From Pseudovibrio sp. M1P-2-3 (GTDB lineage Bacteria; Pseudomonadota; Alphaproteobacteria; Rhizobiales; Stappiaceae): 64,000 nucleotides of DNA. Of the stretch, positions 29,216 to 51,293 are shown piece after piece. The stretch is taken from contig NZ_JARRCW010000001.1 of the NCBI RefSeq assembly GCF_031501865.1, positions 1,556,501 through 1,620,500 of the forward strand. The letters are read 5' to 3'. Numbering within the stretch: position 1 is the first letter of the stretch; each line of letters starts with the position of its first letter. The notes under the pieces were generated by a model, which did no database searches, was not told where the DNA came from, and saw only the letters and a list, made by a program, of their open reading frames with translations. Both the position numbers and the translations under genes were made by a program.

Positions 29216-29295
29216 TTGAAAGGGCTTTTCTATCATTTCCCGCTTGTAGTCAAGCATGTTAGGCAACTTTATCCTCAGTGTTAGGCAATTTCTGT

Positions 29296-29700
29296 TCATA
29301 AGCTGTTCTTGTTGGATAGAGTTTTTATCGCCCTCTCGGCAAATTTGCGGGCTTCTGCCCTGTGAGAGAAATGCTTGCCCATTGCTACTGATTTATCGCC
29401 AATAGCCTCAGCCACTTCCTCGTGAGAAAATCCCAGCTCTTTAAGCTCACTACTATAAGTTACACGCAAGCCATGTAGGGTGAGACCTCTGCCAGTAGGG
29501 CAGGCGTCATGTGCCTTGGTAGGATTGTAAAGACAGCTTCGAACTCTTCATTCGTCCACCTGCGGTTTGTGGTCGTTGAGTTCCTATGAATACGGCGGAT
29601 GCCCTTCAACGGGTTAAACTCAACCTGTGCGTACCTACCAGCTCTGTATATAGCTTTGATGAAGCCATGGTCAGGCAGTTTGAGAAGGTGGCTGCATGAA
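29296..29700 (-). pseudogene. tyrosine recombinase (integrase) remnant
   Basis: The minus strand encodes integrase pieces in two frames. One reads HGFIKAIYRAGRYAQVEFNPLKGI...RRWTNEEFEAVFTILPRHMTPALLAE, the core-binding to catalytic-domain join. After a frame change comes LTLHGLRVTYSSELKELGFSHEEVAEAIGD, the HxxR box. It ends ...ERAIKTLSNKNSL with a stop at 29296-29298. The section normally holding the first catalytic Arg and Lys between these pieces is deleted, and the N-terminal DNA-binding domain is missing. The position beside tRNA-Cys identifies it as the integrase of the element to its right, now dead. Confidence 0.85.
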
Positions 29701-31010: not shown

Positions 31011-31016
31011 GGGATA

Positions 31017-31043
31017 AGACCCCACTCAATTTGAACGGGGTCT
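31017..31043. terminator. possible bidirectional terminator hairpin
   Basis: AGACCCC/GGGGTCT, a perfect 7-bp stem with a 13-base loop, between the convergent dnaB remnant and the VCBS/RTX gene. The T-run is weak, so efficiency is uncertain. Confidence 0.5.
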
Positions 31044-31091
31044 ATTCGCTTTGCTACTAAGGAAAATTATCCCTTATAAAGCCAAACTTTT

Positions 31092-33848: not shown

Positions 33849-34077
33849 TAAATAAACTCCAAAGTTGCACAGTCACTTAGGGAGCTGAAACTTGTGTGAA
33901 GCTTAATTTTGAGTTGTGTGCGGCCAAAGTGTTAACTTAAAAGTTGCTGATGCAGGCAGGTAAATTTGGGCGGTTGGTGATGCCGAATAACGGTTCTATT
34001 GGAGCTAATTTTGCTGCGAAATTGAGGGAAATCTGCTAAGTTCAGCTAGCATACTTCTTCCATTTTAAGGAGCCCAT
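33849..34077. other. divergent promoter region
   Basis: 229 bases between the VCBS/RTX gene and the DUF6362-like gene, with no ORF. TTAAGGAG at 34067-34074 is the ribosome site for the rightward gene. No convincing promoter boxes can be assigned by eye. Confidence 0.4.
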
Positions 34078-34611
34078 ATGAGCGACATTCTTGCTCTAGA
34101 AGCTGTTATCCTAGATAGACTGATTGAGGCCCAAGTGGTGATGCGTTTGGCAAAGGTGAGGGGAGCCTATCCGGGGCAGCCTAGAACCTTTTGGCCTGAT
34201 AGCCAGCCGGGGCAAGAGGAGCAGTGGGAGGCAGCCCTTCAATCTGTAGCCTTGAAACTGACAGATGCAGAGAAGAAGGCGCGAAACATGGCAAGGCCAG
34301 ATGCTGCTGCAATCTCAAGAATGGAAGAGCCATGGAACTGGCTAAGCTTGGTCAAGGAAGATCAAGACAGAAAAGCCTTGGCTGTCATGGTCTTCTGCTA
34401 TGCCTATAAGATCCAGCCTAAGCGCATTTTGGATAAGATAGGACTAGCAAAATCTACAGCGCATTACAGGCTGCATAAGGCTCTAGCTGATATTATGCTA
34501 AGTGTTTGTAATAGAATGCAAAATACAACATTTGCAAGTGAATTATTGGTTGGACAGTTTAGGCCTAAATCGGGTATCTATTCAGATAAGATGAGAACAC
34601 TTGCGGCTTAG
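34078..34611 (+). CDS. DUF6362-like phage protein with C-terminal helix-turn-helix
   Basis: 177 residues. LIEAQVVMRLAKVRGAYPGQPRTFWPDS near the N-terminus and DAAAISRMEEPWNWL in the middle resemble DUF6362 proteins of alphaproteobacterial prophages. Residues ~118-145 (IQPKRILDKIGLAKSTAHYRLHKALADIM) read as a sigma-region-4-like helix-turn-helix. It probably acts as a late regulator in the parent phage. The ribosome site is AAGGAG. Its phage partners here are the broken dnaB and the methylase. Confidence 0.7.
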   Translation: MSDILALEAVILDRLIEAQVVMRLAKVRGAYPGQPRTFWPDSQPGQEEQWEAALQSVALKLTDAEKKARNMARPDAAAISRMEEPWNWLSLVKEDQDRKALAVMVFCYAYKIQPKRILDKIGLAKSTAHYRLHKALADIMLSVCNRMQNTTFASELLVGQFRPKSGIYSDKMRTLAA

Positions 34612-34689
34612 GCTGTACTCATCAAAACCCACTCTAAAACAGGACGGCCAGCCTTTAGAGAGATGGGTATGAACGACAGTGTTGAGTAC

Positions 34690-34733
34690 CATAAGCAAAG
34701 ACCATTCAGGGAGCTGATTGGCTTTTGCTTATG
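34690..34733. other. imperfect inverted repeat
   Basis: CATAAGCAAAGACC and GGCTTTTGCTTATG face each other across ~16 bases between two convergent genes. It may form a weak terminator hairpin, but there is no T-run on either strand. Confidence 0.35.
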
Positions 34734-34755
34734 TTGTTGAACAGGAGTAGTACAT

Positions 34756-35322
34756 TCAATCCTGCGGCATTGTTTCGGGGCGAAGGTAAGCGAACATGTG
34801 TGGCACGTAATCAGCTTTTCCTAGTTCAATCTTCTGATTTCGCAGGATCGCGTAAGCCGTAATCAGATGAAAGTAGAATTGGGCCAGTGCCCAGTCCCGC
34901 GCATATTGTTCACCTGTCATGTCAAAAATCATACCTGTGGGGAGCTCAAGCGAAATCTGCTGTTCCGCACCAGCATCAAGCGAGTTTGCATCAAGAGTAT
35001 TAAGAAACGTGATAGTTTCACTAATCCGGCCTTGAGCATTTGCAATTGAACCAGGGCGTTCTGCTGCATTTTGACCATCGGCGGCAATTTGTTTTAATGC
35101 GTCCGGCACAGATTCACCTCTAAGTCGGTATGTCGCTTCCAGAGCTTGGAAGCAGGCAAAACTAACTTGAGACGACAAGGGGTACATATCAGGCGCAAGC
35201 CGCGCAGATAACAAAGCCTCGGCTTCTGCTTTCGGCAATTGCTTTTGTGCCTTATCGAGCCAACCCGAAAGCCCTCGCAGCATTTGAGCGTAGGTGGGTA
35301 CAAGGAGGTTGGTTAGTGGCAT
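34756..35322 (-). CDS. DUF1993 family protein
   Basis: 188 residues. The start LTNLLVPTYAQMLRGLSGWLDKAQ, RLAPDMYPLSSQVSFACFQALEA and end FYFHLITAYAILRNQKIELGKADYVPHM match DUF1993, a DinB-like four-helix fold typical of chromosomal proteobacterial genes. The usual His ligands of DinB folds are only partly visible (one in FYFHLITAY). It interrupts the phage remnants in opposite orientation. Function unknown. Confidence 0.85.
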   Translation of the reverse strand: MPLTNLLVPTYAQMLRGLSGWLDKAQKQLPKAEAEALLSARLAPDMYPLSSQVSFACFQALEATYRLRGESVPDALKQIAADGQNAAERPGSIANAQGRISETITFLNTLDANSLDAGAEQQISLELPTGMIFDMTGEQYARDWALAQFYFHLITAYAILRNQKIELGKADYVPHMFAYLRPETMPQD

Positions 35323-35424
35323 TGGAACGGCCTCTCCTTTTCGTAGCTATCTGAGTTAACATTATCAGATGATTCCCAGATAACGGGCAAGGGCCGCTAG
35401 AGTTGATCTCCTAGCGTTTAATCC

Positions 35425-35483
35425 GCCCCTGTCAAAGTACCCACCTCACTATCTGGAGGACTGGAGAAAGGCAGGGGCTTTTT
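35425..35483 (+). terminator. branched terminator-like structure
   Basis: Outer stem GCCCCTG/CAGGGGC encloses a small CCTC/GAGG hairpin and is followed by TTTTTA. No upstream plus-strand protein gene ends nearby, so it may end a short untranslated RNA begun after 35330 or be a relic of the phage. No RNA family is recognised. Confidence 0.4.
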
Positions 35484-35648
35484 ATTATCTTGCTGAATGA
35501 GGCGAGAGGCTTGGAGGGTGCAACCTCCTAAGCTACGGGCAAAGTTTATGACGACAAGCCCGCACGATAAGACTTAGCATATTACCGCTCCCGCCAATGC
35601 TACTCACTGCGAAAATGAGCAGGGACGCTATATGCACCGAGAATTAAA

Positions 35649-35807
35649 GTGGAATCAACCCGTTGTGGTAAGTGTAATGCCTTGCTGTTTAAAAGCGAGC
35701 AGGGCGCAATTTCTGGCAAAGTAGAGATCAAGTGTCGCCGCTGCGGCACATTAAATCAGTTGAGGCCAATAGAGCCCATACACGAGTGCCCAGAGCATCA
35801 AGCATAG
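35649..35807 (+). CDS. Com-family zinc-finger regulator (Mu Com-like)
   Basis: 52 residues from a GTG start; the frame is open upstream only to a stop at 35616, without ATG. STRCGKCNALLFKSEQGAISG and VEIKCRRCGTLNQLRP give the CxxC...CxxC zinc knuckle with the hallmark RCxxCxxLL and IKCxRCxxxN of Mu Com, which binds mom mRNA and activates its translation (established for Mu). The next gene, 12 bases after its stop, is a DNA methylase, the position held by mom in Mu. It is too short for many gene finders. Confidence 0.82.
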   Translation: MESTRCGKCNALLFKSEQGAISGKVEIKCRRCGTLNQLRPIEPIHECPEHQA

Positions 35808-35819
35808 AGATGCATTGGA

Positions 35820-36728
35820 ATGAGTAGTGGGGCGCTAAGCCGTGATTTTATAATACCTCCGTTTTCTGTTTTGAGTGCCCGATCGGGTGAATGGCAGGAG
35901 CGCAAGAAGCAATGGCTTGAACTTGGCATTGATAGCGGGGAAGGGCGCAAGGACAACCTGATAAGCGGTTACAAAAACGCTATGCAGAAATGGAAAGAGA
36001 GCAACGGGGGTACTGGGCCTGTGGGCTCTTGGGCTTCTAAGAGTATCTTTGATCCTGTTTTGACTGAGCTTTGCTATGCTTGGTTTTGCCCTCCAGAAGG
36101 GAAGGTATTGGACCCGTTCGCGGGGGGCTCTGTTCGTGGTTTGGTGGCGTCTTTTATGGGGCGTCACTACACAGGGGTAGACCTTAGGCCTGAGCAGGTA
36201 GAGGCCAACGACGCGCAAGCTGATGTGATCGGCATTAAACCCAAGCCAAAATGGAAAGCAGGGGACGCGGTACAGCTTTATAAGCATGTACGCGGGCAGT
36301 TTGATTTTATCCTGACATGCCCGCCCTATGGGGATTTGGAGAAATATTCACAAGACCCGGCAGACCTATCAAACATGCCCTATGACGTGTTTTTAGGGGC
36401 CTTCAGGGCAGCAATGAAGCAATCAGCGGCAAGGCTTAAACAAGACCGCTTTGCAGTTGTTGTCGTCGGCGACTTTAGAGACCGTCACGGGATCAGCCGG
36501 GGCTTTGTGAAGGATACAATCACAGCCTGCCAGGATGCAGGGCTCAAGTTCTACAATGATGCAATTTTGGTAACGCAAGCAGGCTCGTTGCCTCTACGGG
36601 CTCGCGGGGCCTTTGAAGCAGGGCGCAAGCTGGGAAAGACACACCAGAATGTACTGGTCTTTGTAAAGGGTGACCCTAAAGCTGCCACAGAGGCGGCGGG
36701 GAAGGTCACAGGCTTTGATTTTAAATAA
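35820..36728 (+). CDS. phage DNA methyltransferase (N4/N6-amino type)
   Basis: 302 residues. SAM-binding motif I is VLDPFAGGSVRG near residues 97-108, GVDLRPEQVEAN follows, and the catalytic motif is TCPPYGD near residues 167-173 (variant of D/S-PP-Y). FAVVVVGDFRD and HGISRG lie further on. It belongs to the ParB-associated/'DNA modification methylase' type seen in alphaproteobacterial prophages. The Com-like gene immediately upstream probably controls its translation. The target sequence cannot be predicted. The gene is intact though nearby phage genes are broken. Confidence 0.87.
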   Translation: MSSGALSRDFIIPPFSVLSARSGEWQERKKQWLELGIDSGEGRKDNLISGYKNAMQKWKESNGGTGPVGSWASKSIFDPVLTELCYAWFCPPEGKVLDPFAGGSVRGLVASFMGRHYTGVDLRPEQVEANDAQADVIGIKPKPKWKAGDAVQLYKHVRGQFDFILTCPPYGDLEKYSQDPADLSNMPYDVFLGAFRAAMKQSAARLKQDRFAVVVVGDFRDRHGISRGFVKDTITACQDAGLKFYNDAILVTQAGSLPLRARGAFEAGRKLGKTHQNVLVFVKGDPKAATEAAGKVTGFDFK

Positions 36729-36812
36729 GCCTGCCTTGAAGGAGCAGAATAGGCCAGAAAACGGAGCATATGCTAATAATCAGTGACTAGTGAGGAGGCA
36801 ACGGTGCAAAAG

Positions 36813-37319
36813 TCAATAATACTTTTTGGGGCGCGTCCGTTTAGTGGAGGTTTCAACGTCATGCCCTCGGAAATCAAACCAGGCTTGACACCTCTGACAG
36901 CCTTTAGAGCTCTGATGTCCCTGAAGGATGCTTTTGATACCGTCTTCCTTGCAAGTTGGGCAAAGGTAATGCGTGGATTCTTCCTTGGCGGCTTGCTCTT
37001 TAAGGCGATACACATGTTGACCGGCTGGCGTCTCCCAAAGCTCATAGCGTGCAAATTCGTCAGCCTTGGTCTGCGCATTTACCGCGGCTTGCTTCAACGT
37101 CAGAAGTTGCGTCTTCAGTTCAACATTCGCCAGCTTCGCATCAGTAACCTCACTCATCAGCTCCACGACAAGAGCTTTAAGCTCTTGGTCGCCCGGCGTC
37201 TTAGAAGAACCTACAAGGTCCTTGATAGACTTGGCTAGACCGGCTGCCCTATCAGTGAGTTTGACACCGCTGTCAGCATACTTAATCAATGTGGTGAAAT
37301 TCTCGAAATCGAAATCCAT
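36813..37319 (-). CDS. hypothetical protein with coiled coil and zinc ribbon
   Basis: 168 residues from ATG 37319. An N-terminal helical part (FENFTTLIKYADSGVKLTDRAAGLAKSI), a coiled coil (EVTDAKLANVELKTQLLTLKQAAV), then a C4 ribbon YLCPTCKEDG...GCQRCQAWF with two CxxC pairs and a basic tail. This helix-plus-ribbon layout is frequent in small phage regulatory or DNA-associated proteins. The opposite-strand ORF over the same bases lacks any motif and is rejected. Confidence 0.68.
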   Translation of the reverse strand: MDFDFENFTTLIKYADSGVKLTDRAAGLAKSIKDLVGSSKTPGDQELKALVVELMSEVTDAKLANVELKTQLLTLKQAAVNAQTKADEFARYELWETPAGQHVYRLKEQAAKEESTHYLCPTCKEDGIKSILQGHQSSKGCQRCQAWFDFRGHDVETSTKRTRPKKYY

Positions 37320-37645
37320 CGCTACAAACTCGCCGCTGAGGTCTATCAAAAATGAAGATAATTACTAGGCGATTCTTGGGGCACAAAACAAGGGAAACAG
37401 AGACCAACTAAACCTGTGGCATTGCCGGAGCTTTGAGCGTGTCAACTTAATTGGGTGTTGGTCTACGAATTCCATTAGGCCAGAGGTAAAGACCGCACAA
37501 CCGGGCCGGATAGGTGACTGTAAACCTGCATTGCCATAACTTATGAAACCCTTTCAATCTGAGGCGTGTTCATAGATGGCAATGTCTTTGCATGTACAGT
37601 TTTAAACTGACACTAGTTTCCCAATATGCAAAGGAGGCATACCCG

Positions 37646-38482
37646 ATGGTTGAAATTCGCGGCATTGAGTTTCAGGGGGATACCGACAATAGTATGGGTC
37701 TGGAGTTCTATAATCTAAGCCATAGATATGGTTTCCAATGCCCCAACTGGCCGTATTTTGAAGATGTACAGATTAACCGGAAACACTATATGGCAAAATC
37801 CGGTGTCCTGTCGCAAACAATTACGACAACTATGCACGTTACCACCCATATTGATGCCCCCGCACATGTTGTACAAGGAACTCCATTTATAGACGAAGTG
37901 CCCCTCGCGCATTTCTTCGGCTCTGGCCTAGTCGTATCCGTTCCCAAAAATAAATGGGAGCAGATTACAGGTGAAGATTTAGACAAGGCATGCGGCCACG
38001 CAATCCGTAAAGGGGATGTTCTGCTTATCAATACAGGTTGGCATAAACAATACGAAGACGGAGATTATTTTGCTTACTGCCCAGGGCTGGTACCTTCTGC
38101 GGCTGAGTGGATGATCGAGAAAGGTGTGAAAGTTGTTGGGCACGACACTCAAGCAAACGACCATCCATTAGCAACTGCCATTGGCCCCCAGCGCAATGGA
38201 CCGATCTTACCTCATCTAGAAAAAGAGTATCTTGAATGGTCGGGAGGAACACCGTGGAATGTCGATTTCCCAGAATGGGAACCAGTGCACAATATGTTGT
38301 TTTCAAAAGGTATTCTAGGCATTGAGAACGTTGGAGGTGATCTGGATGCTGTCACCGGTAAGCGCTGTACTTTTGCCTTCTTCCCTTGGAACTGGGATCG
38401 CGGAGATGGTTGTATCATTCGTCTCGTTGCGATGATCGACAAGAAACAGATGTATCGTATTGAATCTGGAGAGGAGTTCTAA
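37646..38482 (+). CDS. cyclase / kynurenine formamidase-family metal hydrolase
   Basis: 278 residues. AAGGAGG about 9 bases before ATG 37646 fixes the start against a longer reading from 37592. The metal-binding motif appears as TTHIDAPAHV (HxDxPxH core), and GHDTQANDHPLATAIG matches the second conserved region of the PF04199 cyclase family, which includes arylformamidases, isatin hydrolases and polyketide-cyclase-like enzymes. It probably forms an operon with the SDR 113 bases downstream. The substrate is unknown. Confidence 0.85.
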   Translation: MVEIRGIEFQGDTDNSMGLEFYNLSHRYGFQCPNWPYFEDVQINRKHYMAKSGVLSQTITTTMHVTTHIDAPAHVVQGTPFIDEVPLAHFFGSGLVVSVPKNKWEQITGEDLDKACGHAIRKGDVLLINTGWHKQYEDGDYFAYCPGLVPSAAEWMIEKGVKVVGHDTQANDHPLATAIGPQRNGPILPHLEKEYLEWSGGTPWNVDFPEWEPVHNMLFSKGILGIENVGGDLDAVTGKRCTFAFFPWNWDRGDGCIIRLVAMIDKKQMYRIESGEEF

Positions 38483-38595
38483 GAGTACTCCGGCCAAACA
38501 ATCGATTAAGTGCGAACAATCTGAACTGGCTCAAACCACATTTACAAGACGCCTGTTACCATTCTGGACCCTCTAGAAGACTAAGGACAAATAAG

Positions 38596-39381
38596 ATGTC
38601 TGATCCCCACAAGATGTTTGATATAAGAGGAAATATTGCATTGGTTACTGGGGCGTCAGGGGCATTTGGACAGGTCGCAGCGCGTACTCTGGCAGAGGCC
38701 GGTTGCAAATTGGTTCTGGCAACGGGTAATCAAGGGGCTCTTGAAAAGATCACCACTGAATGCGAGGCACTGGGGAGCACCGTCGTTGCGGTAAATTCTC
38801 GCCCGACCAATGAGAAATCTTGCCAAGCCTTGGTCGAGGAAGCGGTCAACAGCTTTGGAAAACTCGATATCCTCGTTGTTGCTTCTGGTATGAACAAAGT
38901 GGCTTTGATCGATGAGATGGGCCCCGAAACGTTCCATGCAATCATGGAGGCCAACGTGACCCAAAGCTGGTTGCTTGCCCGCGCAGCGGTACCGCAGATG
39001 AAAAACAACCGATACGGTAAGATCATCTTCGTCAGTTCTGCGCGCAGCATCTTGGGTCATCCTGCGGGGTACACCGCTTATTGCGCCTCGAAAGCAGCCA
39101 TAAACGGGGTCACCCGAGCATTGGGCTGCGAGCTAGGTCCAACAGGAATAACCGTTAATGCAATTGCACCGACGGTCTTCCGTTCTCCTTTGACGGCATG
39201 GATGTTCGAAGACAATGATACCGCCGAGGAAGTACGTAAAGGTTTTCTAACCCGCGTCCCAAAGGGGCGCCTTGGCGAACCCGAAGACTTGGCAGGCCCC
39301 TTGCTGTTCCTTGCCTCGCGCGCCTCTGATTTTTATACGGGGCATATTCTTTATGCTGACGGTGGATACACGGCAGGTTAG
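38596..39381 (+). CDS. short-chain dehydrogenase/reductase (SDR)
   Basis: 261 residues. TGASGAFGQVA near residues 19-29 is the NAD(P)-binding TGxxxGxG, N-A-S/A-G appears as VASGMNK, the catalytic Ser is in VSSARS and the YxxxK is YCASK; the end is YADGGYTAG as in classical SDRs. It is close in layout to gluconate-5-dehydrogenase-like enzymes. The preceding cyclase-family gene suggests a short catabolic or tailoring operon. The substrate is not predictable. Confidence 0.9.
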   Translation: MSDPHKMFDIRGNIALVTGASGAFGQVAARTLAEAGCKLVLATGNQGALEKITTECEALGSTVVAVNSRPTNEKSCQALVEEAVNSFGKLDILVVASGMNKVALIDEMGPETFHAIMEANVTQSWLLARAAVPQMKNNRYGKIIFVSSARSILGHPAGYTAYCASKAAINGVTRALGCELGPTGITVNAIAPTVFRSPLTAWMFEDNDTAEEVRKGFLTRVPKGRLGEPEDLAGPLLFLASRASDFYTGHILYADGGYTAG

Positions 39382-39840
39382 GTGAGGGAGAAATGCCTCC
39401 CAAAAGGATAACGAGTAATACCAGCGGGTATGTTTTTGACATGGAATTAGGATTCATAAAATGAGTATTGGGACGCCCCTTTCAGGCTTTACCGTACCAA
39501 AGTGGTGTCATGACTACTTGTATAGGAGGCGTCCATCCATCACCCACTCATAAACTCAAAAAATACCCGCTTTATCAGAGAACTTGCAGCACTGGATCTG
39601 GATGTGCGCCTGATGTCTGGGGCTACATATTAAAGCCAGTGAAGCGTGGAATTCTTTGCCTTGCGTGGGTACATGTTGCCTGCGTTTGACACAAAAGGGA
39701 TGGTAAGCTCAGATCTAATAACGGTAGATCAGCGAGGCCGAATGCGCACACTCTACCGAGGATAAATTTGCTTTGACACCTGTAGTTGTGGAGTGCCGAT
39801 TGAGCGAAAACAATATAAAAGTGGCCGGTATACACCACAA
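39382..39840. other. intergenic, nothing convincing
   Basis: 459 bases between convergent genes. Short ORFs on both strands lack ribosome sites and motifs. No clear terminator seen. Confidence 0.4.
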
Positions 39841-40353
39841 TCATGCTATGCCGTTTGCTCGTTTCCACTTACGCAGCCTTGTACGTGCATTGGCATAAGG
39901 CGATGAAGTGTTGAACTGGATCATACGTCCTAAGGTATATTTCTCATACCAGTTTGAGCCGTAGAGGCGTTCGTTTGACTGATCTGAAATGAATTTGACA
40001 ATCTCCTGCTTGGCGCCTTTGAAGTCTTTTAAAAGCTGATCGAAGGCGGTGTTTTCGTAGTCTGAGTAGAATTTTTGAGCAAGCAGGCCGAGTTGGTTCC
40101 ATTGAAACCCTGTTTCTGGAAAATCAATAGGTGCGCCTTTAGCATCAAGATTTATCCATTTCAGGACCAAATGATTCCACCCAACCAGATAACTAACCAG
40201 ATTATGCACATCCATCATTGTGCCTTTGGCATGTCCTTCAAGCGTTGCCTCCCGGCATCGTGCATCCGGGACTGTTTCTAGGTCTTTGAACAGTTTTGCA
40301 AAATTCACTTCAATTGCGTTGAGCAACTCGTCACGGGAGGCTGGGGTCGGCAT
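39841..40353 (-). CDS. ClbS/DfsB (DUF1706) family protein
   Basis: 170 residues from ATG 40353, the same length as E. coli ClbS. Conserved blocks are LEGHAKGTMMDVHNLVSYLVGWN, IDFPETGFQWNQLGLLAQKFYSDY, LYGSNWYEKYTLGRMIQFNTSSPY and ARTRLRKW. ClbS is the colibactin self-resistance cyclopropane hydrolase, and DfsB is a relative (family knowledge); many members have unknown substrates. It is 0.7 kb from the IS3 copy that abuts the NRPS. No colibactin PKS genes are seen. Whether it protects against an NRPS product here is inference. Confidence 0.9.
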   Translation of the reverse strand: MPTPASRDELLNAIEVNFAKLFKDLETVPDARCREATLEGHAKGTMMDVHNLVSYLVGWNHLVLKWINLDAKGAPIDFPETGFQWNQLGLLAQKFYSDYENTAFDQLLKDFKGAKQEIVKFISDQSNERLYGSNWYEKYTLGRMIQFNTSSPYANARTRLRKWKRANGIA

Positions 40354-40383
40354 GTGAACCGTCTCTTTTCCAAATAACACCAA

Positions 40384-41068
40384 TACATCACAATGCGGGT
40401 GTTACTGCTAAAGGTAGTCATTATCGGTAAGTGCAACTATTGGGATGATATGACTTTGTCTTTGGCTCTTCAAGACTCTGAGCTAATAGCTTTGATACCG
40501 CGCTTATATGGGCAGTAAGGGCGTGTACGAGCGCGAAGCGCGGGGCTTCCAGCCTGAGATAGGGGCGGAGATTGAGAGGCTGTTTGCAAAGCAGTAATCA
40601 AAAGCCCCTTAATCAATGAAAAAGTTATAAAGCGCTATTCATTTTCGTTTTGAGGTCAGGTTTGCACCACCATCAAAACGGAGAACCAGCATCGCAATGG
40701 TGAGGAGAATTGCACGAAAAGACAATTCTTAAATGGACTCTTAGATTGTGAAAGAGGCAGTATCGCCACGGAGATATTCTGATTACAAGGCTTGCGCCTA
40801 GACAGCACAGTCAATGTTAATCTACCAAATGTTCATTATATTGCCAAAATACATGCTTAAAATGAAGCTAGTCAATTCTGCTGGCTTTATGAGTTATTTT
40901 CGATGGAAAATACAGGTTTCTCCCGTTGCAAATCTTATAGTTCAAGGCGGTGCGGACATGATTGCTTTAGAACACCCCTATATTTCTGATGGTGCGGTAC
41001 ATCATACTCGCCGGTTGTAAATATGAAGTTAGGTGTTCCTGTTTTGGCTCACGCCCGTGCACGTGACT
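40384..41068. other. 685-bp region without a confident gene, left flank of the IS3 copy
   Basis: Contains a 29-codon ORF at 40508-40597 (GSKGVYEREARGFQPEIGAEIE) that may be the tail of a lost gene, and an AT-rich ORF at 40814-41020 with no motif. No NRPS-like coding is visible in the last 400 bases before the IS, so the missing NRPS 5' end is not here. Confidence 0.45.
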
Positions 41069-41124
41069 GAGCCTCCCCCAAAGAAGTGGTCCACGTTTAT
41101 GATTAGGAAAACGGAGGACTCGAT

Positions 41125-41403
41125 ATGGGAATCAAGAGACCCAAACCAGAAGAGATTGTCGTTAAACTGCGGCAAGTTGAAGTCCTGATGGGGCAAGGAA
41201 TGGCGCGCTTGGATGCGATCCGCCAGATCGGCGTTACCGAGCAAACCTATTACCGTTGGAAGAAGAAGTATGGCGGAATGGGTACGGAGCAACTCAAGGA
41301 ACTGAAGCGGCTGCAGAAAGAAAATGAACGTTTGCGCCGTGCGGTCTCTGATCTGACATTGGACAAGCTGATCCTTACGGAGGCTGCAAAGGGAAACTTC
41401 TGA
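41125..41403 (+). CDS. IS3-family transposase OrfA
   Basis: 92 residues. A helix-turn-helix ([39 protein letters not shown]) is followed by a leucine-zipper-like helix [28 protein letters not shown]. It binds the IS ends. Near its 3' end A_AAG_GGA is in slippery phase to produce the OrfAB fusion. Confidence 0.93.
41388..41394 (+). promoter_or_regulatory. IS3 -1 frameshift heptamer (A AAG GGA)
   Basis: OrfA codons GCA AAG GGA put AAAGGGA in X_XXY_YYZ phase two codons before the OrfA stop. A -1 slip enters the OrfB frame, reading [14 protein letters not shown], the usual junction in this family. Confidence 0.75.
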
Positions 41404-42251
41404 GCCCTGCTCGTCGCAGAGCCTGCATTAACCATATACGCAGTCAGGTGAAGGTTTCCGAGCGGCGTGTTTGTCGTGTTCTTGGTCAGCATCGCTCCAC
41501 ACAGCGTCGCTTCCCCAAAGGGCGAGCGGATGAAGATCAGCTGGTTGCAGATATGATTGAGCTGGCACGCCAATATGGCCGTTACGGTTACCGTCGCATT
41601 GCCGCTTTGCTCCGAGAGGCTGGATGGCAAGTGAACGATAAACGTGTTGAACGTCTGTGGCGACGGGAGGGGCTGCAAGTTCCCATAAAGCAACCGAAAC
41701 AGGGGCGGCTCTGGCTCAATGATGGGTCTTGCATACGTCTCCGGCCACAGTATCGCAATCACGTGTGGTCCTATGACTTTGTCCATCATCGCACTGATGA
41801 TGGCAGGGCATTCAGAACGTTGAATATTTTGGATGAGTATACGCGTGAATGCCTTGCTATTCGGGTGAAGCGAAAGCTGAATGCGAGCGAAGTCATCGAT
41901 GCGCTGACGGACCTGTTTATCCTGCGCGGCATACCTGCCTATATTCGTTCAGATAACGGCCCGGAGTTCGTGGCGGAGGCGGTTCAAAAGTGGATCAAAT
42001 CCGTCGGAGCCCAAACAGCCTACATTGAGCCAGGATCGCCTTGGGAAAACGGATATTGCGAAAGTTTCAATGGGCGAATGCGTGATGAATTATTGAATGG
42101 AGAAATCTTCTACTCGCTACATGAAGCTCAAATAATCATAGAACGCTGGAGGAAACACTACAATACCAAACGACCGCATAGTGCTCTGGGCTACCGCCCT
42201 CCAGTTCCGGAAGTCATTATTCCGATAGACCAAAGGCCAACCATGCACTAA
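41401..42251 (+). CDS. IS3-family transposase OrfB (DDE integrase domain)
   Basis: The OrfB frame is open through the OrfA stop and joins it by frameshift; an internal GTG at 41448 is the first conventional start. The DDE triad is visible: [30 protein letters not shown], and [22 protein letters not shown] with the Glu. It ends [14 protein letters not shown]...THE-like tail, 33 bases before the right IS end. Intact, so the element could be active. Confidence 0.93.
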
Positions 42252-42294
42252 CTTTCAAAGCGGACCACTCAAACGGGGCTGCTCACTCATTCCT

Positions 42295-45200
42295 TTGTCT
42301 TATCAGCAAGAGCGCCTCTGGTTTTTAGATCAGTTCGATAAGAACGCGGGTACTGCCTATCATGTGGAACCAATATTCCATCTGAAAGGTAACCTTGACT
42401 TAAGAGCTTTGGAAAAAGCGCTGCTAAAGCTAGTTGTCCGTCATGAGAGTTTGAGAACAGTTTTCATCGCTGGTGAGGATGGAGTACCTCACCAGAAGAT
42501 CATATCTCCCACTACTGCAAATTTCAGTCTGGAGATTCAAGAAGACTTTTCTGGAAATAAAGAGGGAATAAAAGCTCGCATCAGCGGTCTACTGGCTCGT
42601 CCGATTGATTTGGAGACAGGCCCAGTTTTCAGGGCGACTGTTATAAAACTATTTGATGGATCTCACCTTCTAATAATTGGAGGCCACCACATCATTTTAG
42701 ATGGCTGGTCTTTGGACGTTTTATATTCTGAATTAGAAGCGCTTTATGAAGAGGAGCTGGGCGGGCAGAAGGCAAATATTTTAGATTTACCTATGCACTA
42801 TGCCGATTACGCAGTGTGGCAACGAAGGACATATTCAGGGAAAGAGATAAAACAGGATATCGAATGGTGGAAAGAGGAGTTACAAGGACTACCTTCTACA
42901 ATCAATCTACCAGTTGACAGGCAGCGACCTAGCGCAATGAACTATCAAGGCGGCGCTGTTCCAATCTCTATTCCAACTGAGATAATAGAAGAAGCAAAGA
43001 AGTTAAGTCAGCGAGCTGATGCAACTCTGTTTATGGTTATTGAAACAGTGTTTGCTGTTTTACTATCCCGTCTTGGCGCTGGAGATGATTTTGTACTGGG
43101 TACTGCGGTCGCAGGGCGATCGCAGACAGATCTAGAAAGACTTTGTGGCTTCTTCGTCAACACAGTTGCCCTTCGCCAACGGATAAATCTAGACCGAACT
43201 GTATTTCAGCAATTGCAATTAAACCGAGAAATAACTCTTGATGCGTTCTCACATTCTGAAATTCCCTTTGAAGCCATAGTTGATGCTATTGCACCCGATC
43301 GCTCAATGGGACACGCACCTATTATTCAAGTTTTATGCGTTCTACAAAATACGCCAGAGGGTGAAGGCGACATAAGATTGCGCGACCTTTCGGCTTGCGC
43401 CTACCGAGAAACTCCAGTTGAAAAAATAAAATTTGAACTTTGTCTAGAGTTAACGGAAACTGTCGAAGGATTGATTGGTGAGCTAACGTACTCGTCTCAG
43501 TTGTTTAACGCAAGCACTGCGCAACATATTGGTTCTATGTTCGAGAACTTCTTTGCGGCAATGGTCAGCAGTACACAAACTGAGTTGTGGGAGCTCCCAT
43601 TACTGGGAGAGGAAGAAATAGAACTGGTCACCTCAACCTTCAATATTGCGAAAATGGATCAAGCTCCTGCCGCAAATATTACTAGCCTATTAGTAAAACA
43701 AGCCCACATGAGACCGGATTCAATAGCGCTTTTAGAAGGAGAGAAGAGCCTAACCTATGCGCAACTGGATGAGGACTCTGACCATCTGGCTCAGTACTTA
43801 CTTGGTTTGGCAGTCGGACCTGAAATGGTTGTCGGAGTTTGTTTACAAAGGTCAGTAGACCTAATTACGACGCTCTTTGCTCTGTTTAAAATAGGAGGGG
43901 GGTATATGCCCCTTGATCCTGACTACCCTGCGGAACGTCTCAACTTCATGGTGTCGGATGTTGCAGCGAAAGTAATCGTGACAGCCAGCCCTTTTATTGA
44001 GAAACTGAGGCCTGCGATAAAAGGTCTGAACACTACGTTTATTTGTTTAGATGCGCCGGAGGTTAGTTTTAAGATTAGTTCAAATTACGCGTTTGTACCT
44101 GCGCATCAGAAACCGATCGTTTCACCGGATAACCTCGCATACGTAATTTATACATCCGGCTCCACAGGGAGGCCAAAGGGGGTTGCGGTAAATCACCAGT
44201 GCGCTGTGCAGCTTGCAAAATTCCAAGGGGAAGACTTTCTTGGTGGCAAAGCGTTGAGGGTTGGCTGGTTTGCATCCATTGGGTTTGATGCATCAATATC
44301 GGAAGTTTTAATGACATTTTGGTGTGGAGGTAGCCTGATTACTATTCCCAACGAAGTCCGAAACAGCGGCAGAGACGTTATTGAGTTTATTGATAGTCAC
44401 AGAATTGAGGCCATTACTCTCCCTCCACTTTTTTTAAAGGATATCGTTAAAGCTAAACCATCTGGGCTGGAGTGCTTAGTAAACGCAGGGGATATAGCGC
44501 CGCCAGATGCTTCCAAACAGGCAGCAGAACTATTTGATTACATAAATGCCTATGGCCCAACGGAAAATACTGTTTGCGCAACTCGATTTCGAGTGCCACA
44601 AGATTTTGTAGGTGGCTCTGTCCCAATAGGATCGCCTATTTCCGGCACAGAAGCTTATGTCGTGGATGAGCATCTCCAACTGCTTCCTCTTGGTGTGCTA
44701 GGTGAACTCGTAGTCGGAGGACTTCAAGTTTCCCGCGGTTATGTAGGGCGATCAGGGTTGACTGCGGAGAGGTTCATTGCAGATCCATTTTCTGGAAGGG
44801 CGGGTGCCAGATTATATAAGACCGGAGATCTAGTCCGCTGGCTTGATAATGGCGACCTACAATATGTCGGCCGCTCCGACTTTCATGTCAAAATCCGCGG
44901 ATACCGCATTGAGCTGGGTGAGATCGAACAGGCCCTGACCTCGCAGCCGCAAGTCAAACAGGCCTTGGTCGTAGTCCATACCCGTACTGGGTCGGAACAA
45001 TACCAGTATCTGGTTGCCTACTATGTACCCTCAGATCCCGCATGCGATGGGGCAGACTTTGATGACACTTTACGCAAAGTCCTGTCTTCAACCCTTCCAG
45101 AGTATATGGTGCCCAGTGTATTTATCAAACTGATGGCCTTACCACTGACGGTCAGCGGAAAGCTGGACCGTAAGGCCCTTCCCGATCCAGAGACGGCCTT

Positions 45201-48200
45201 GAGTAAAGAGGCGTATGTTGCGCCGAAAAATGATCTGGAACGCCAGCTTTGTAACATATGGATGCAGGTGCTTGGGTTGAAACGTATCAGCGTAAACACA
45301 GGCTTCTTCAAAATTGGCGGCAACTCTATTCAAGCTATCCGGCTGGTGACACGGATTAATCAAGAACTTGGGCATCAACTGACAGTGGCAGCGATTTTTG
45401 AACATCGCACGATCGCGGCTTTGGCTGAAGCTCTAGGCCACACGTCAAGAGCCCAACTAGTCATCCCGAAGGCCGCCGAGAAGGCGCAGTATCCCCTGTC
45501 CTTTGCCCAAGAGCGTCTGTGGTTTATTGACCAGTATGAGGGAGGCATAAGCGCCTATCATTCCCCTAGGCTGTTCCGTCTGTCGGAAACGGTGAACTGT
45601 ACCGCCTTAAAAGTCAGTCTTGCTGCCATAGTTGCCCGCCACGAAGCCTTGCACAGCCATTTTATAAAAGATGCTGACGGGACCTATTATCAGAAAGTTT
45701 GCCAAGCTCCTTTCTTAGTAAATGAACATTTTTTGGAGGAAACTGAATGGGAAGACGCCCTCAAAGGCGCGATCTACCAGACCTTCGACCTTGAGAGAGA
45801 GCCTCCAATCCGGGCTACTATCTATACTGTCGGCGAGCAGGCCTATCTTCTAGTGGTCTTACACCACGTGGCGTTTGATGGCTGGTCCAGTCAGGTCCTC
45901 TTGAACGATCTTGCCCTATTCTACCACCACTACGTCCATGGGGCCCCACTGAAACTTCTGAAACTGACGATCCAATATAAGGACTTTGCTGTCTGGCAGC
46001 GCGGCTACCTGTCGGGTGAGCGCCTTCACACCCAACTGACCTACTGGAAAGAGCGTCTGGCCGGCTATGAGACGCTTGCCTTCCCAACGGACTTTCCGCG
46101 CCCTGCCCAGTTTGACTACAAGGGGGATGCAGTAACCTTTGCGCTGGATGCGGGCTTGTCGACAAAACTTCGAGCACTGGCTAAGGCGCGAAGGGTCAGT
46201 CTCGACACGTTGCTACGCAGTGCCTACGCAGTGCTGCTCAGCCGTACCAGCGGACAGAGCGATATTGTATTTGGCGCGGCCACAGCAAACCGGCACTACC
46301 CGCAGGTGGAAAACCTGATCGGTTTTTTCGTCAACACGCTTGCATTGCGGGTACAGGTGGCGGGGCGGCAGTCGTTTTCAGATCTGCTGCAAACTGTACA
46401 TCTGTATTTAAGTGAAGCCCAGCACTATCAGGATATCCCGTTTGAACTGCTGGTCAGTGCTCTGGAAGTTGAACGGGACCGCAGCCGTCATCCCATTTTT
46501 CAACACAGTTTTAGCCTGCAAAGTTTCCCCGGAAAGCAAATCGAAGGAGTAGAGCCCGTATCCTTGTACGACACGTTCAAGCGCGCGTTGTTCGACCTGA
46601 GTCTGTTTATGGATGCAAGTCTGGAGGCGATCACAGGGCGGATCGAATATGCGACCAGTCTGTTCACACAGGCTAGGATCAAGCGTTTTACTGAGCACTT
46701 TAAAATTCTGCTCACTGGCATCGTTGCAGCGCCGGAGCTACCGGTTTCTGATTATACGCTGCTGCCATCGCGAGAATACGATCTGGTGGTACGCGACTGG
46801 AACCAAACACACGCTCAGTACCCCAAAGACAAGACTTTGACTGATCTGTTTGAGGCGCAAGTTCTAAGAACGCCGGAACGTATTGCCGTGGCGTTTGAAG
46901 ACGAAGCACTCACTTACCTCGAGCTGAATGCTCGGGCAAATCAACTGGCCCACGCCATCTGCCGGGACTATCAAGCTCACGCTGGGGAGCCGCTTCGCCC
47001 TGACACCTTGATCGCACTTTTTCTGGAGCGCGGTCTGGGGAACGTAGTCAGTATTCTAGCGGTGCTCAAGGCCGGGGGAGCTTATCTTCCAATTGATCCG
47101 GACTATCCCAAGGCTCGGGCTTGTTTCATGTTGACAGACAGCCGTGTCCCGCTGCTGCTCACGCAACTGTGTCATGCCCCAAAGTTGAGGGTCTGGATAG
47201 AGGAGATGAGCAAGCCACCGCGCATAATCGCGATAGACGACAAGCACGCACTTGAGGAGTGTTGCTGCGCCAACTTGGGGTTAATCAGCGGTCCGCAAAA
47301 CCTTGCCTATGTAATCTACACATCAGGTACAACCGGAAAACCCAAGGGAGTCATGGTAGCACAGCAATCGGTTATTAACCTTGCCCAAAATGAAACATCT
47401 ACCCTCGGTCTGGTAGGGAATGACCATGTGCTGCAATATGCCTCGTTTGGTTTTGACGCATCTGTTTCTGAATTATTTGCCCCATTAGTAACCGGTTCCT
47501 CTTTGTATATTTGTCCAAAAGTATTGCAGGCTGAGAATATTAAGTTTTCAGAGTATCTGGTTAACAACAAAATTACACTGGCTACAGTCCCACCCCAATT
47601 ACTTAAAGTACTGTCGCATCGCGAAATTCCAGAATTGAAGACTTTGGTAATTGCGGGAGAGGCCTGCGAACTATCAGTGATGAAGTTCTGGTCAAAGGGG
47701 CGAACCCTGATCAACGCGTACGGGCCGACGGAAAGCACTGTTTGCGCATCGAGGCATCCCTATAAAACTGGCGACAGCAATACCAACATCGGCAAACCTT
47801 TGGCCAATATCACTTGCTATGTACTCGACCCTTATCTTGAGCCGGTTGCTGTTGGCGCATTTGGGGAGCTTTACATTGGCGGGGTCGGTCTGGCCCGAGG
47901 ATATCTGAACCGTCCAGGCTTGACCAGCGTACGCTTTATTGCCAATCCCTTTGCTTGTGAAGACGACCTCACCAATGGCCACACCCGGCTGTATAAAACC
48001 GGTGATCTGGTCCGCTGGCTCGACAACGGAGACTTACAGTATGTTGGCCGCACAGATTTTCAGGTCAAGATCCGAGGATATCGCATTGAGCTGAGTGGAG
48101 TCGAACAGGCCCTGACTTCACAGGCGCAAGTCAAACAAGCGGTGGTTGTGGCCCAGACTCGCCCGGGAGCGGAGCAAAGCCAGTATCTGGCGGCGTACTA

Positions 48201-51066
48201 TGTGCCCTCGCAAGAGGCACAACAGACACTGCTCAGCACCCATACCAAAGACGCTGTTGAGGCTTGGAAAGGACTGTATCAATCAGCCTATGAACGAGAT
48301 ACAGCGGAGGACAAAACCTTTGACATTGCTGGCTGGGAAAGCTCGTTTACAGGCCAACCCATCCTGGAAAGTGGGATGAGGGAGTGGGTAGCGGCAACGA
48401 TTGAACGCATCACAGCACTTGAGCCAAAGCATATTCTGGAAATCGGCTGTGGTACGGGGTTGTTGCTTTACCCACTGCTAGACGTATGCGAGCACTATAC
48501 AGCCACGGATTTTTCCGAAGCTGCAATCTCTCGGCTTAAGAAAACGGTTGTCGCACTTGGCAAAGCCGACAAGATCACCGGACTTGTGTGCGATGCGGAC
48601 GCAGTTGGCACGCTGTGTAGAGATACTTCAGTCGATACTGTAGTTATAAATTCGGTCGTACAGTACTTCCCCGGCCTAGCTTATTTCGAGCAGGTATTGG
48701 AAGATGCAATCAGTTGCATTCAAGACCATGGAACAATCTTTATTGGCGATGTGCGTGACCACCGCCTGCTGGAGAGCTTCCACTTCGCAGTTCAGGCGTA
48801 TCTGGCCCCCGAATCCCGATTGGGTGAGGCCCAAAAACGGGCCCGCTGGTTGGCCTATCGAGATAAGGAACTCCTGCTTAACCCTGAGTATTTTATCAAA
48901 CTCACCACAGATCATCCTGCTGTTTCACATGTCCAAATCTTGCCCAAGCGCGGGGACGCAAACCATGAGATGAACCGGTTCCGCTACGATGTCATCCTCA
49001 AGATTGATCGGGCACCTGCCAAATCTATACCAGTCCTGACACTTCCCCGCTTCAGCTATTCGCAGAGTGAAAACCTTAGCTCTTGGTTGCAAGATCACAT
49101 GTCTGGAGGCGGTCTGATCATTGATGGTTATCCCAACAAACGGGTCTGGGCTAATTGTCAAGCATTATATCAAGAAGGGGCCGCACCCAGTTTGACGCGG
49201 GTATCCGAGGTTCTGACAACTGTAGACTTTAAGGCTGATGGTATTCTGGACATTGAGGCTTTACATAGTTTTGCAAGGGACAATCACCAGAGTCTGGAGA
49301 TATTCCTGGATCCTCGGTCTGGAAAAGCAGATCAATTTACACTCCTGTTCCGCCCACTCAAAGAAACGGAGGTGCAGGAAATCTTCACTGACCATCTGTT
49401 TGAGCATATCACCACCTCGGATCAGCTCTTCAGCAACATTCCTTACACAGCACAGCGGGCTGAACTTACCCAAACCCTACGCGCAGCCCTGTCCTCAACT
49501 TTTCCCGACTACATGGTGCCAAGTATTTTTGTCGAGCTGAATGCGATACCATTAACGGTCAACGGCAAGCTGGACCGTAAGGCACTTCCTGCGCCAGAGG
49601 TAGTCTTAAGTGAAGAGGCGTATTCCGCACCACGCAGTGATGTGGAGCGTCAACTCAGCTCCATCTGGTCGCAGGTACTCGGCTTGGTGAGGATCGGGGT
49701 GAATACAAACTTCTTCAAAGTTGGCGGCGACTCTATTCAAGCTATCCGGCTGGTGACACAAATTAATAGCCAATTTAGGCTCCAGTTGACCGTGGCAACA
49801 GTATTTGAATATCCAACTATTTCAAAGCTTGCAGAAAGACTGGATGTTGGTGTTGATGAGCCATTAAGGTCTGGTCTTCCTCTTGCCCGAAAGGACATCA
49901 ACCGTATTGAAGGCTTCCCTCCTCCGCAAAAAGGAACTCCAGAAACATTAAAAGATGATAGCACCGTTTTACTTACAGGAGCTACGGGATTTCTTGGCCG
50001 CTACCTACTACGAGACTTATTGGCTACGACGAATACAAAGGTAAAATGCCTGGTGCGAGGAGACACTCCAGAACACGCAAGAACTCGCCTTCTCACTGCT
50101 TTGTCGAGTGTCGAACCTAAACACTTATCTGCCATAACACTTCAGCGAATTGAGGTCATCAATGGAGATTTTTCGGAGCCCAAACTCAATTTATCAGATT
50201 CGCTTTGGAACCAGCTCTGCGAAGAAACAGACCTTATATTGCACAATGGAGCAGAGGTGAACACTGTAAAGCCCTATTCTTCACTGCGCTGCCCCAATGT
50301 GATCAGTCTTTATAACCTGCTCTCACTCATGACAGAAGGTCGTCCTAAGAAGTTACACTTTATCTCAACGATGGGTGTGTTTGCCGGTATTGCATCAGGT
50401 AAGGTTGAGGAAACAACTTCCCTATCTGACCATCCCCCAATGAATACGGGTTATGCTCTATCAAAATGGGTTTGTGAGCAAATACTCGCTCAGGCTAGGG
50501 AACGTGGCTTTAATGTTAACTGGCACCGTCCTGGCCTGATCATTGGCGATTCTAATACGGGTTATTATGATGCCCGGAACTCTGGAACAGCATTTATTCA
50601 GTTAGCCAAAGAAGTTAGAGCGGTTCCAGACTTACCGGCTGGTATTATTTGGATTAACGTGAACCGGGCTTCCTCGATGATCTTGGAGGCCGTGTTTGAA
50701 GATAAAGAAGTTCAAATGCCAACCCATATCTTTGAGTATTCTGCTCCAACGGCTGAAACTGTCGTTGAAGCCGCACGTAGGGCAGGACTAAACCTGCAAC
50801 CGGTGAAATGGAAATGGTGGTACAAGCGTGTTCAAAAACAGGTACGAAAAACGCCAAACCATCCAGCTACATGGTTCGTGTCGCAGTTCCTTGACCCAAA
50901 TCGTAATGTTCAAAAAGACACCGCAGACACTCACGAGAAACTAACTATTGGACCTATGGGTACAGTGTTTATTGATGGTCAAATTTCATCACGGCATGGA
51001 CCAAAGGTGGATAACGACATGGTAGGCCAACTAGTTGAACCCATACGTTGGCGGTTAATGCACTGA
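42295..51066 (+). CDS. dimodular NRPS, C-A-PCP-C-A(MT)-PCP-reductase, 5' end removed at the IS3 junction
   Basis: 2923 residues counted from a TTG at 42295 that is really the Leu of the C1 motif PLSYQQERLW; no ribosome site or ATG lies nearby, and the pre-insertion frame has TGA just outside the IS. Order: C1 (HHIILDG ~131; FFVNT), A1 (YTSGSTGRPKG ~618; YGPTE; YKTGDLVRW), PCP1 (GGNSI ~1010), C2 (HHVAFDG ~1190), A2 (YTSGTTGKPKG ~1675) split by a methyltransferase (EIGCGTG ~2047; NSVVQYFPG; IGDVRDHRLL), PCP2 (GGDSI ~2477), thioester reductase (TGATGFLG ~2560; YALSK ~2720). Both A domains read as DASTVAAVCK, a code assigned to Tyr. Expected activity: couple two aromatic residues, N-methylate the second and release an aldehyde by NADPH reduction. 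All core residues look intact apart from the missing start. Confidence 0.9.
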   Translation: MSYQQERLWFLDQFDKNAGTAYHVEPIFHLKGNLDLRALEKALLKLVVRHESLRTVFIAGEDGVPHQKIISPTTANFSLEIQEDFSGNKEGIKARISGLLARPIDLETGPVFRATVIKLFDGSHLLIIGGHHIILDGWSLDVLYSELEALYEEELGGQKANILDLPMHYADYAVWQRRTYSGKEIKQDIEWWKEELQGLPSTINLPVDRQRPSAMNYQGGAVPISIPTEIIEEAKKLSQRADATLFMVIETVFAVLLSRLGAGDDFVLGTAVAGRSQTDLERLCGFFVNTVALRQRINLDRTVFQQLQLNREITLDAFSHSEIPFEAIVDAIAPDRSMGHAPIIQVLCVLQNTPEGEGDIRLRDLSACAYRETPVEKIKFELCLELTETVEGLIGELTYSSQLFNASTAQHIGSMFENFFAAMVSSTQTELWELPLLGEEEIELVTSTFNIAKMDQAPAANITSLLVKQAHMRPDSIALLEGEKSLTYAQLDEDSDHLAQYLLGLAVGPEMVVGVCLQRSVDLITTLFALFKIGGGYMPLDPDYPAERLNFMVSDVAAKVIVTASPFIEKLRPAIKGLNTTFICLDAPEVSFKISSNYAFVPAHQKPIVSPDNLAYVIYTSGSTGRPKGVAVNHQCAVQLAKFQGEDFLGGKALRVGWFASIGFDASISEVLMTFWCGGSLITIPNEVRNSGRDVIEFIDSHRIEAITLPPLFLKDIVKAKPSGLECLVNAGDIAPPDASKQAAELFDYINAYGPTENTVCATRFRVPQDFVGGSVPIGSPISGTEAYVVDEHLQLLPLGVLGELVVGGLQVSRGYVGRSGLTAERFIADPFSGRAGARLYKTGDLVRWLDNGDLQYVGRSDFHVKIRGYRIELGEIEQALTSQPQVKQALVVVHTRTGSEQYQYLVAYYVPSDPACDGADFDDTLRKVLSSTLPEYMVPSVFIKLMALPLTVSGKLDRKALPDPETALSKEAYVAPKNDLERQLCNIWMQVLGLKRISVNTGFFKIGGNSIQAIRLVTRINQELGHQLTVAAIFEHRTIAALAEALGHTSRAQLVIPKAAEKAQYPLSFAQERLWFIDQYEGGISAYHSPRLFRLSETVNCTALKVSLAAIVARHEALHSHFIKDADGTYYQKVCQAPFLVNEHFLEETEWEDALKGAIYQTFDLEREPPIRATIYTVGEQAYLLVVLHHVAFDGWSSQVLLNDLALFYHHYVHGAPLKLLKLTIQYKDFAVWQRGYLSGERLHTQLTYWKERLAGYETLAFPTDFPRPAQFDYKGDAVTFALDAGLSTKLRALAKARRVSLDTLLRSAYAVLLSRTSGQSDIVFGAATANRHYPQVENLIGFFVNTLALRVQVAGRQSFSDLLQTVHLYLSEAQHYQDIPFELLVSALEVERDRSRHPIFQHSFSLQSFPGKQIEGVEPVSLYDTFKRALFDLSLFMDASLEAITGRIEYATSLFTQARIKRFTEHFKILLTGIVAAPELPVSDYTLLPSREYDLVVRDWNQTHAQYPKDKTLTDLFEAQVLRTPERIAVAFEDEALTYLELNARANQLAHAICRDYQAHAGEPLRPDTLIALFLERGLGNVVSILAVLKAGGAYLPIDPDYPKARACFMLTDSRVPLLLTQLCHAPKLRVWIEEMSKPPRIIAIDDKHALEECCCANLGLISGPQNLAYVIYTSGTTGKPKGVMVAQQSVINLAQNETSTLGLVGNDHVLQYASFGFDASVSELFAPLVTGSSLYICPKVLQAENIKFSEYLVNNKITLATVPPQLLKVLSHREIPELKTLVIAGEACELSVMKFWSKGRTLINAYGPTESTVCASRHPYKTGDSNTNIGKPLANITCYVLDPYLEPVAVGAFGELYIGGVGLARGYLNRPGLTSVRFIANPFACEDDLTNGHTRLYKTGDLVRWLDNGDLQYVGRTDFQVKIRGYRIELSGVEQALTSQAQVKQAVVVAQTRPGAEQSQYLAAYYVPSQEAQQTLLSTHTKDAVEAWKGLYQSAYERDTAEDKTFDIAGWESSFTGQPILESGMREWVAATIERITALEPKHILEIGCGTGLLLYPLLDVCEHYTATDFSEAAISRLKKTVVALGKADKITGLVCDADAVGTLCRDTSVDTVVINSVVQYFPGLAYFEQVLEDAISCIQDHGTIFIGDVRDHRLLESFHFAVQAYLAPESRLGEAQKRARWLAYRDKELLLNPEYFIKLTTDHPAVSHVQILPKRGDANHEMNRFRYDVILKIDRAPAKSIPVLTLPRFSYSQSENLSSWLQDHMSGGGLIIDGYPNKRVWANCQALYQEGAAPSLTRVSEVLTTVDFKADGILDIEALHSFARDNHQSLEIFLDPRSGKADQFTLLFRPLKETEVQEIFTDHLFEHITTSDQLFSNIPYTAQRAELTQTLRAALSSTFPDYMVPSIFVELNAIPLTVNGKLDRKALPAPEVVLSEEAYSAPRSDVERQLSSIWSQVLGLVRIGVNTNFFKVGGDSIQAIRLVTQINSQFRLQLTVATVFEYPTISKLAERLDVGVDEPLRSGLPLARKDINRIEGFPPPQKGTPETLKDDSTVLLTGATGFLGRYLLRDLLATTNTKVKCLVRGDTPEHARTRLLTALSSVEPKHLSAITLQRIEVINGDFSEPKLNLSDSLWNQLCEETDLILHNGAEVNTVKPYSSLRCPNVISLYNLLSLMTEGRPKKLHFISTMGVFAGIASGKVEETTSLSDHPPMNTGYALSKWVCEQILAQARERGFNVNWHRPGLIIGDSNTGYYDARNSGTAFIQLAKEVRAVPDLPAGIIWINVNRASSMILEAVFEDKEVQMPTHIFEYSAPTAETVVEAARRAGLNLQPVKWKWWYKRVQKQVRKTPNHPATWFVSQFLDPNRNVQKDTADTHEKLTIGPMGTVFIDGQISSRHGPKVDNDMVGQLVEPIRWRLMH

Positions 51067-51170
51067 ATGTTCTTGAGACTATAAGGGGTAGTGATGGAAT
51101 AGATGCCTCTCCCGGCGTATTTCTGCAATACAGAGCAGAGTGTAGCTTTTGGAAAAAGAGGGACGCAACC

Positions 51171-51293
51171 ATGAAGAACCTTGCCGTTGTTGGAGTTGAT
51201 TTATCAAAGAGCGTTTTTCTGGCGCTTAACAAAGGGTTTGACGTAAATCGGCACAATCAAGCGAACCTCGTGCCCAGCTTTCCCAGACATTAA
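51171..51293 (+). pseudogene. IS110-family transposase N-terminal remnant
   Basis: MKNLAVVGVDLSKSVFLAL is the N-terminus of IS110-type (DEDD) transposases, holding the first catalytic Asp in GVDLSK. After ~20 residues similarity is lost and a stop follows at 51293. With the IS3 copy on the other side, the NRPS is flanked by mobile elements. Confidence 0.72.

Follow-up and report, generated by a model that had tools for sequence, protein, structure and literature searches.

The window, i.e. the whole 64,000-nucleotide stretch of the Pseudovibrio sp. M1P-2-3 genome analysed here, carries a nonribosomal peptide synthetase (NRPS) whose reading frame starts against the end of an insertion sequence (IS). 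This raises the question of whether the IS marks the loss of an upstream part of the gene, landed close to the natural start of a stand-alone synthetase, or put a shortened synthetase under new control. We favour the first answer with reasonable confidence: the frame is probably a 5'-truncated orphan NRPS fragment, left by an IS-associated rearrangement in an IS-rich genome.

The synthetase frame and its domains

In the list of open reading frames the synthetase occupies positions 42295-51066 of the forward strand (8.8 kb; 2,923 residues from the first usable start, TTG 42295). Pfam and NCBIfam models identify two Condensation, two AMP-binding and two PP-binding domains, a methyltransferase and a thioester-reductase domain, every one of them above its curated cut-off, while the order of the condensation (C), adenylation (A) and carrier (T) domains was set by a search with models built in the analysis. 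Together these matches give the layout C-A-T-C-A(MT)-T-R; NRPS domains fill the entire length of the ORF, which is no chance frame. Its features are:

42292 to 43542, forward: condensation domain C1, opening with PLSYQQERLW and holding the motif HHIILDG, of putative elongation type by similarity (domain search, matches to PDB sequences)
43723 to 45189, forward: adenylation domain A1 (domain search)
45214 to 45429, forward: carrier domain T1, with GGNSI (domain search)
45493 to 46701, forward: condensation domain C2 (domain search)
46882 to 49596, forward: adenylation domain A2, matched as two pieces around an inserted methyltransferase (MT; core about 48436-48735)
49621 to 49836, forward: carrier domain T2, with GGDSI (domain search)
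49963 to 50928, forward: thioester-reductase domain R (TIGR01746, NAD_binding_4)

The MT inside A2 matches both Methyltransf_12 and Methyltransf_11, and the R domain reaches 249 bits against TIGR01746 (cut-off 213), covering positions 1-330 of the 371 of the profile. To its C, A and T domains the frame adds a thioester reductase at the C terminus, which in sequence terms defines a reductive-release NRPS, and reductive release of an aldehyde or alcohol product is predicted. A preceding sequence-only reading had spoken of 2.9 kb of motif-perfect domains; the domains are indeed intact, and the figure is to be corrected to 2.9 thousand residues, i.e. 8.8 kb.

Modules that finish with a carrier followed by a thioester-reductase domain are also known from AusA (aureusimine) and MxcG (myxochelin). 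The window NRPS has this ending in common with both and matches their NCBIfam models partially, with scores below the equivalog cut-offs (NF047350 for AusA, 1299.6 bits against 2500; NF038078 for MxcG, 999.8 bits against 2300). It differs from them in opening with a C domain and in carrying its methyltransferase inside A2. The A-domain codes, taken by eye at the usual motif positions, read D-A-S-T-V-A-A-V-C in both A1 and A2, presumably a tyrosine code; no evidential use is made of them, and a literature search for this code returned no paper.

The IS3 border and the start of the frame

The left border of the synthetase is formed by an IS3-family element, with the following features at and ahead of the junction:

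41068 to 42285, forward: full-length IS3-family element, 1,218 bp, with inverted TGAGC ends, orfA and orfB, abutting the NRPS
41125 to 41403, forward: orfA of the element (sub-threshold match, 43.5 bits)
41448 to 42251, forward: orfB of the element (NF033516, IS3 transposase, 242 bits, cut-off 160)
42229 to 42294, forward: open frame leading from the right end of the IS into the NRPS, free of ATG, GTG and TTG (translation and sequence)

Its membership in the family is seen in the TG...CA inverted ends (the termini are TGAGCC...GCTCA) and in the two ORFs, the second of which is an IS3 transposase. The genome holds 26 matches to the element, 12 of them full-length with the window copy counted; the other 11 full-length copies are 88-99.8% identical to the window copy, and the closest sister differs from it at 2 of 1,218 bases. 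IS3 elements of marine Alphaproteobacteria, on Sulfitobacter and Phaeobacter plasmids, are nearly equal in length and ends (74-80% identity in the best 15 of 227 matching records), and are unlike the window copy in that no NRPS is annotated within 300 bp at the seven places opened out of those 15.

No target-site duplication is present at the window copy, whose flanks read GTGAC on the left and CTCAT on the right. This does not count against IS3 membership, since most copies of the IS are without one: a duplication of at least 3 bp was seen at 2/12 full-length copies of the same genome and at 1/7 of the plasmid copies opened (seven of 15 listed). The missing duplication was likewise rejected as proof of a deletion, as 10/12 own and 6/7 plasmid copies also lack it, and the argument drawn from it is weakened.

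Concerning the junction itself, the C1 motif PLSYQQERLW starts two codons past the right end of the IS (42285). The NRPS frame stays open backward into the IS as far as TAG 42226, with no ATG, GTG or TTG in this frame between that stop and TTG 42295; the next in-frame start is GTG 42364, and the first ATG, at 42793, is residue 167. The description of a headless ORF that opens in C1 at the IS3 border is borne out. It had further been held that the frame reconstructed across the target site meets a TGA two codons upstream. When the flanks were joined across the IS with 0-5 bp dropped (n=6), an upstream TGA arose in one join of the six, that with exactly 1 bp dropped, and the direct join is open, with ATG 41023 in frame 17 codons ahead of the C1 motif; the claim is not robust.

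The open direct join is a counterpoint to truncation with loss, as it fits a clean insertion and little loss. Such an insertion near the natural start is the main rival: the IS3 would have landed close to the 5' end of a self-contained NRPS gene, with neither duplication nor deletion, splitting off a start such as ATG 41023 and removing only ~15 codons. The usual absence of target duplications for this IS is in keeping with it; against it, an in-frame start ahead of a stop arises by chance fairly frequently. Together with the comparison of related C domains given below, this leads us to regard a clean insertion as unlikely.

Another possibility is that the gene has been rewired, read-through from the transposase and initiation at TTG 42295 (or GTG 42364) yielding a short reductive-release synthetase. 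The frame is intact with its core domains, no terminator-like site was found between orfB and the NRPS, and a TTG start would cost C1 at most a few residues. The expression signals point the other way. A sigma-70-like consensus scan of 40900-42500 gave no site within the IS directed towards the NRPS, and its single match, at 42335, lies inside the NRPS and is not above chance (shuffled sequence gave a mean of 1.4). The closest run of G before TTG 42295, at 42275-42278, ends 16 nt short of it, a wider gap than a ribosome site normally has. The promoter or other expression signal that had been placed inside the IS is unsupported, and rewiring is very unlikely. A bolder version, in which the IS3 acts as a module trimmer and read-through plus the TTG start frees a C-A-T-C-A-MT-T-R enzyme whose product is a new N-methylated peptide aldehyde of small size, seems to us highly improbable; if true, it would be a natural case in which an IS has cut an assembly line down precisely at the boundary of a domain.

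Sequence ahead of the first condensation domain

Against PDB sequences C1 scores 289 bits with Txo2, 194 bits with tyrocidine synthetase 3 and 41 bits with CDA synthetase I, whose domain we take to be of the starter type; by this similarity C1 appears to be of the elongation type. Eleven other C domains of the PLS/PVS-QQE type were found in 260 kb of the same genome: in ten a carrier domain ends 23-24 residues upstream, and the eleventh is preceded by an A domain. A donor module is hence to be expected before C1, because the domain looks elongation-type and most C domains like it follow a carrier.

Six-frame pieces of 29204-41067 (11.9 kb) gave no C, A or T domain signal at E<=1; the models used were the C, A and T domains of the genome's own NRPSs, which would miss other module types (e.g. 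PKS). Three further NRPSs were scanned at their ends; all three carry a thioesterase and are no obvious donors in trans. An elongation-type C1 with no donor module nearby also speaks against the rewired gene.

The space ahead of C1 was compared with that of related C domains, none of which is an orthologue of it. All 21 with a scored start have at least 26 in-frame residues ahead of the motif, these counts running from stop to stop and being upper bounds (the 21 come from 26 rows after removal of the own locus, L046, two partial L036 rows and a partial L064 row). Five of these are frame-initial, with 26-49 residues counted in this way, and one of the five, L045, has an ATG 16 residues ahead of the motif, a situation that would suit a clean insertion. 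Against such an insertion, four of these five N-terminal C domains have 45-49 residues upstream, and in the left flank of the IS only short repeat matches and a ClbS-like gene were seen, with no NRPS domain.

Taken together, sequence to the left of C1 was probably lost, and the loss of a whole upstream module, which would follow from the elongation type of C1, is likely; loss of a short N-terminal extension alone is possible. The proposal that the IS removed an upstream module and the start fares accordingly in part: the lack of any C, A or T signal in 29204-41067 agrees with a probable loss of sequence, and the loss of an entire module is likely rather than proven.

In the truncation that we favour, the ancestral NRPS would have continued leftward, C1 expecting a donor carrier domain. 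An IS3 copy that moved recently, together with a deletion or through recombination between IS copies, would have produced a new left edge, and this edge would have replaced the start codon, the ribosome site and any upstream module, while on the right the remnant of another IS would have come to abut the stop codon. The frame would still be intact by virtue of a young event rather than of demonstrated use. The deletion, its size and the loss of function we infer; the junctions, the lack of NRPS domain signals upstream and the parallel truncation described below are observed.

The undamaged 2,923-codon frame is itself a counterpoint to truncation, as selection for function would explain it equally. 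It is no proof of use, since the IS copy is recent and few substitutions would be expected in 8.8 kb, and for the same reason it lends little to a rewired gene. We consider the window NRPS to be probably a young pseudogene. Where the sequence-only reading had left the choice between recently silenced and rewired, the young truncation is retained and rewired expression is left without support.

The case seems to be common genome decay caused by mobile elements, which wear down large genes for peptide synthesis, rather than a new mechanism. Biosynthetic genes cut short by an IS are well known, and the likeness to the pseudogenes of symbiont and other IS-rich genomes lies in the cut by a recent multicopy IS and in further NRPS fragments; the difference is that here the event is deduced from one genome, with no IS-free copy found. 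A search of the open-licence literature for NRPS clusters that lost production after disruption by an IS found no paper covering all of these points. For genome mining the locus is a warning, as a reductive-release NRPS may seem complete with neither an ordinary start nor an adjoining donor module. If it were expressed nonetheless, it would illustrate a natural route to shortened assembly lines.

Relatives, surroundings and other NRPS fragments

The check put forward at the outset, i.e. to look for an uninterrupted orthologue in related genomes, yielded none in the collections searched. With C1 (423 aa) as query 20/61 genomes matched, the own one included, at a best identity elsewhere of 43-44%; the same query gave one locus (39%) in genome contigs, in a single-protein search that reaches close relatives only, and no match in viral contigs. 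The whole protein matched 2,252 plasmid records, all below 60%. Its C-terminal 788 aa, at E<=1e-60 and in overlapping draws, found the own genome only in the class (1/385) and the order (1/397), and in the phylum (3/398) the own genome and two others at 31% and 33%. Judged by these searches, the window NRPS is a divergent enzyme with no close relatives in the collections covered.

Beyond the frame, two further features bear on its setting:

51086 to 51286, forward: rearranged remnant of a multicopy IS110-family element, from 19 bp past the NRPS stop (segments ~97% identical)
29204 to 51872, no strand: stretch from tRNA-Cys (29130-29203) to the PCMT gene (51873), 22.7 kb, containing the NRPS

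Segments of the remnant are ~97% identical to several places in the same genome and are rearranged in the window; the equivalent frame in another IS110 copy matches DEDD_Tnp_IS110, and the 40-aa piece in the window gave no match in a profile search. The NRPS is flanked by mobile elements on both sides, the IS3 on the left and the IS110 remnant on the right. The stretch between tRNA-Cys and PCMT, 22.7 kb in the window, measures 0.3-2.0 kb in 6/7 relatives fetched (out of 15 with the PCMT gene; the seventh stretch is without tRNA-Cys). In a report on a Pseudovibrio strain, many mobile elements are described around NRPS clusters, one of which is bookended by integrases and transposases (PMC5563371).

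The left part of this stretch, 29204-37000, holds genes for a DnaB C-terminal domain, DUF6362, a DNA methylase and a cadherin/RTX-repeat protein; in the genome G008 a repeat protein related to the latter is encoded on the opposite side of tRNA-Cys. The ClbS/DfsB-like gene (PF08020) at 39841-40383 on the reverse strand shares 83% DNA identity over 559 bp with a gene of a same-genus genome. There it overlaps a frame read as PPTase, and the contig also has NRPS, PKS, MATE and amidase-like frames, together read as a colibactin-like set; the window frame overlapping the ClbS-like gene diverges from its same-genus counterpart after ~10 codons, and no part of such a set was seen among the 10 window ORFs scanned.

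Three NRPS fragments of this genome, the window NRPS among them, stop at an IS or lie next to IS-like genes, which is in keeping with truncation by mobile elements. The second, at 2.27 Mb (L058, contig C1, 2268561-2277947, reverse strand), is interrupted by one TGA, giving frames of 952 and 2,175 aa, and stops ~95 residues into a C domain at a 99.2% identical IS3 copy, with no NRPS match in the 1.5 kb beyond that copy. The third, on contig C2 (L061, 10448-11149), is a relic that retains a carrier domain and part of a condensation domain. It shares 57% identity with window NRPS residues 967-1188, numbered from 42286, and is flanked by genes read as Ada-like and, putatively, IS66-like.

A search for the missing 5' part beside the 26 IS loci met one other NRPS end, that of the 2.27-Mb NRPS (IS locus L004). 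It was rejected as the missing half: it stops inside a C domain, its GC content, 56%, exceeds the 44% of C1 in the window NRPS (whose other domains reach up to 53%), and no matching 3-4-bp duplication joins the two loci. A two-step deletion may nevertheless relate them.

It should be considered whether the junction is an assembly artefact, one IS copy wrongly linking two distant parts of the genome. The IS is multicopy, and contig C4 (L062, 6,622 bp) is made of frame-broken pieces that match modules of the giant NRPS frames described next and look like uncorrected reads or mis-assembly. The window, on the other hand, lies on a 4.64-Mb contig, the IS is merely 1.2 kb long, and a fitting upstream NRPS end was present at none of the 26 IS loci (1.5 kb on each side), which makes an artefact extremely improbable.

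The giant frames themselves (L050-L054, contig C1, 2121819-2157368 and 2173505-2203216) encode 11,849 and 9,903 aa. They lie on opposite strands with 16 kb between them. Their modules are repeated, one of them containing three identical T-C linkers, and their ends match thioesterases.
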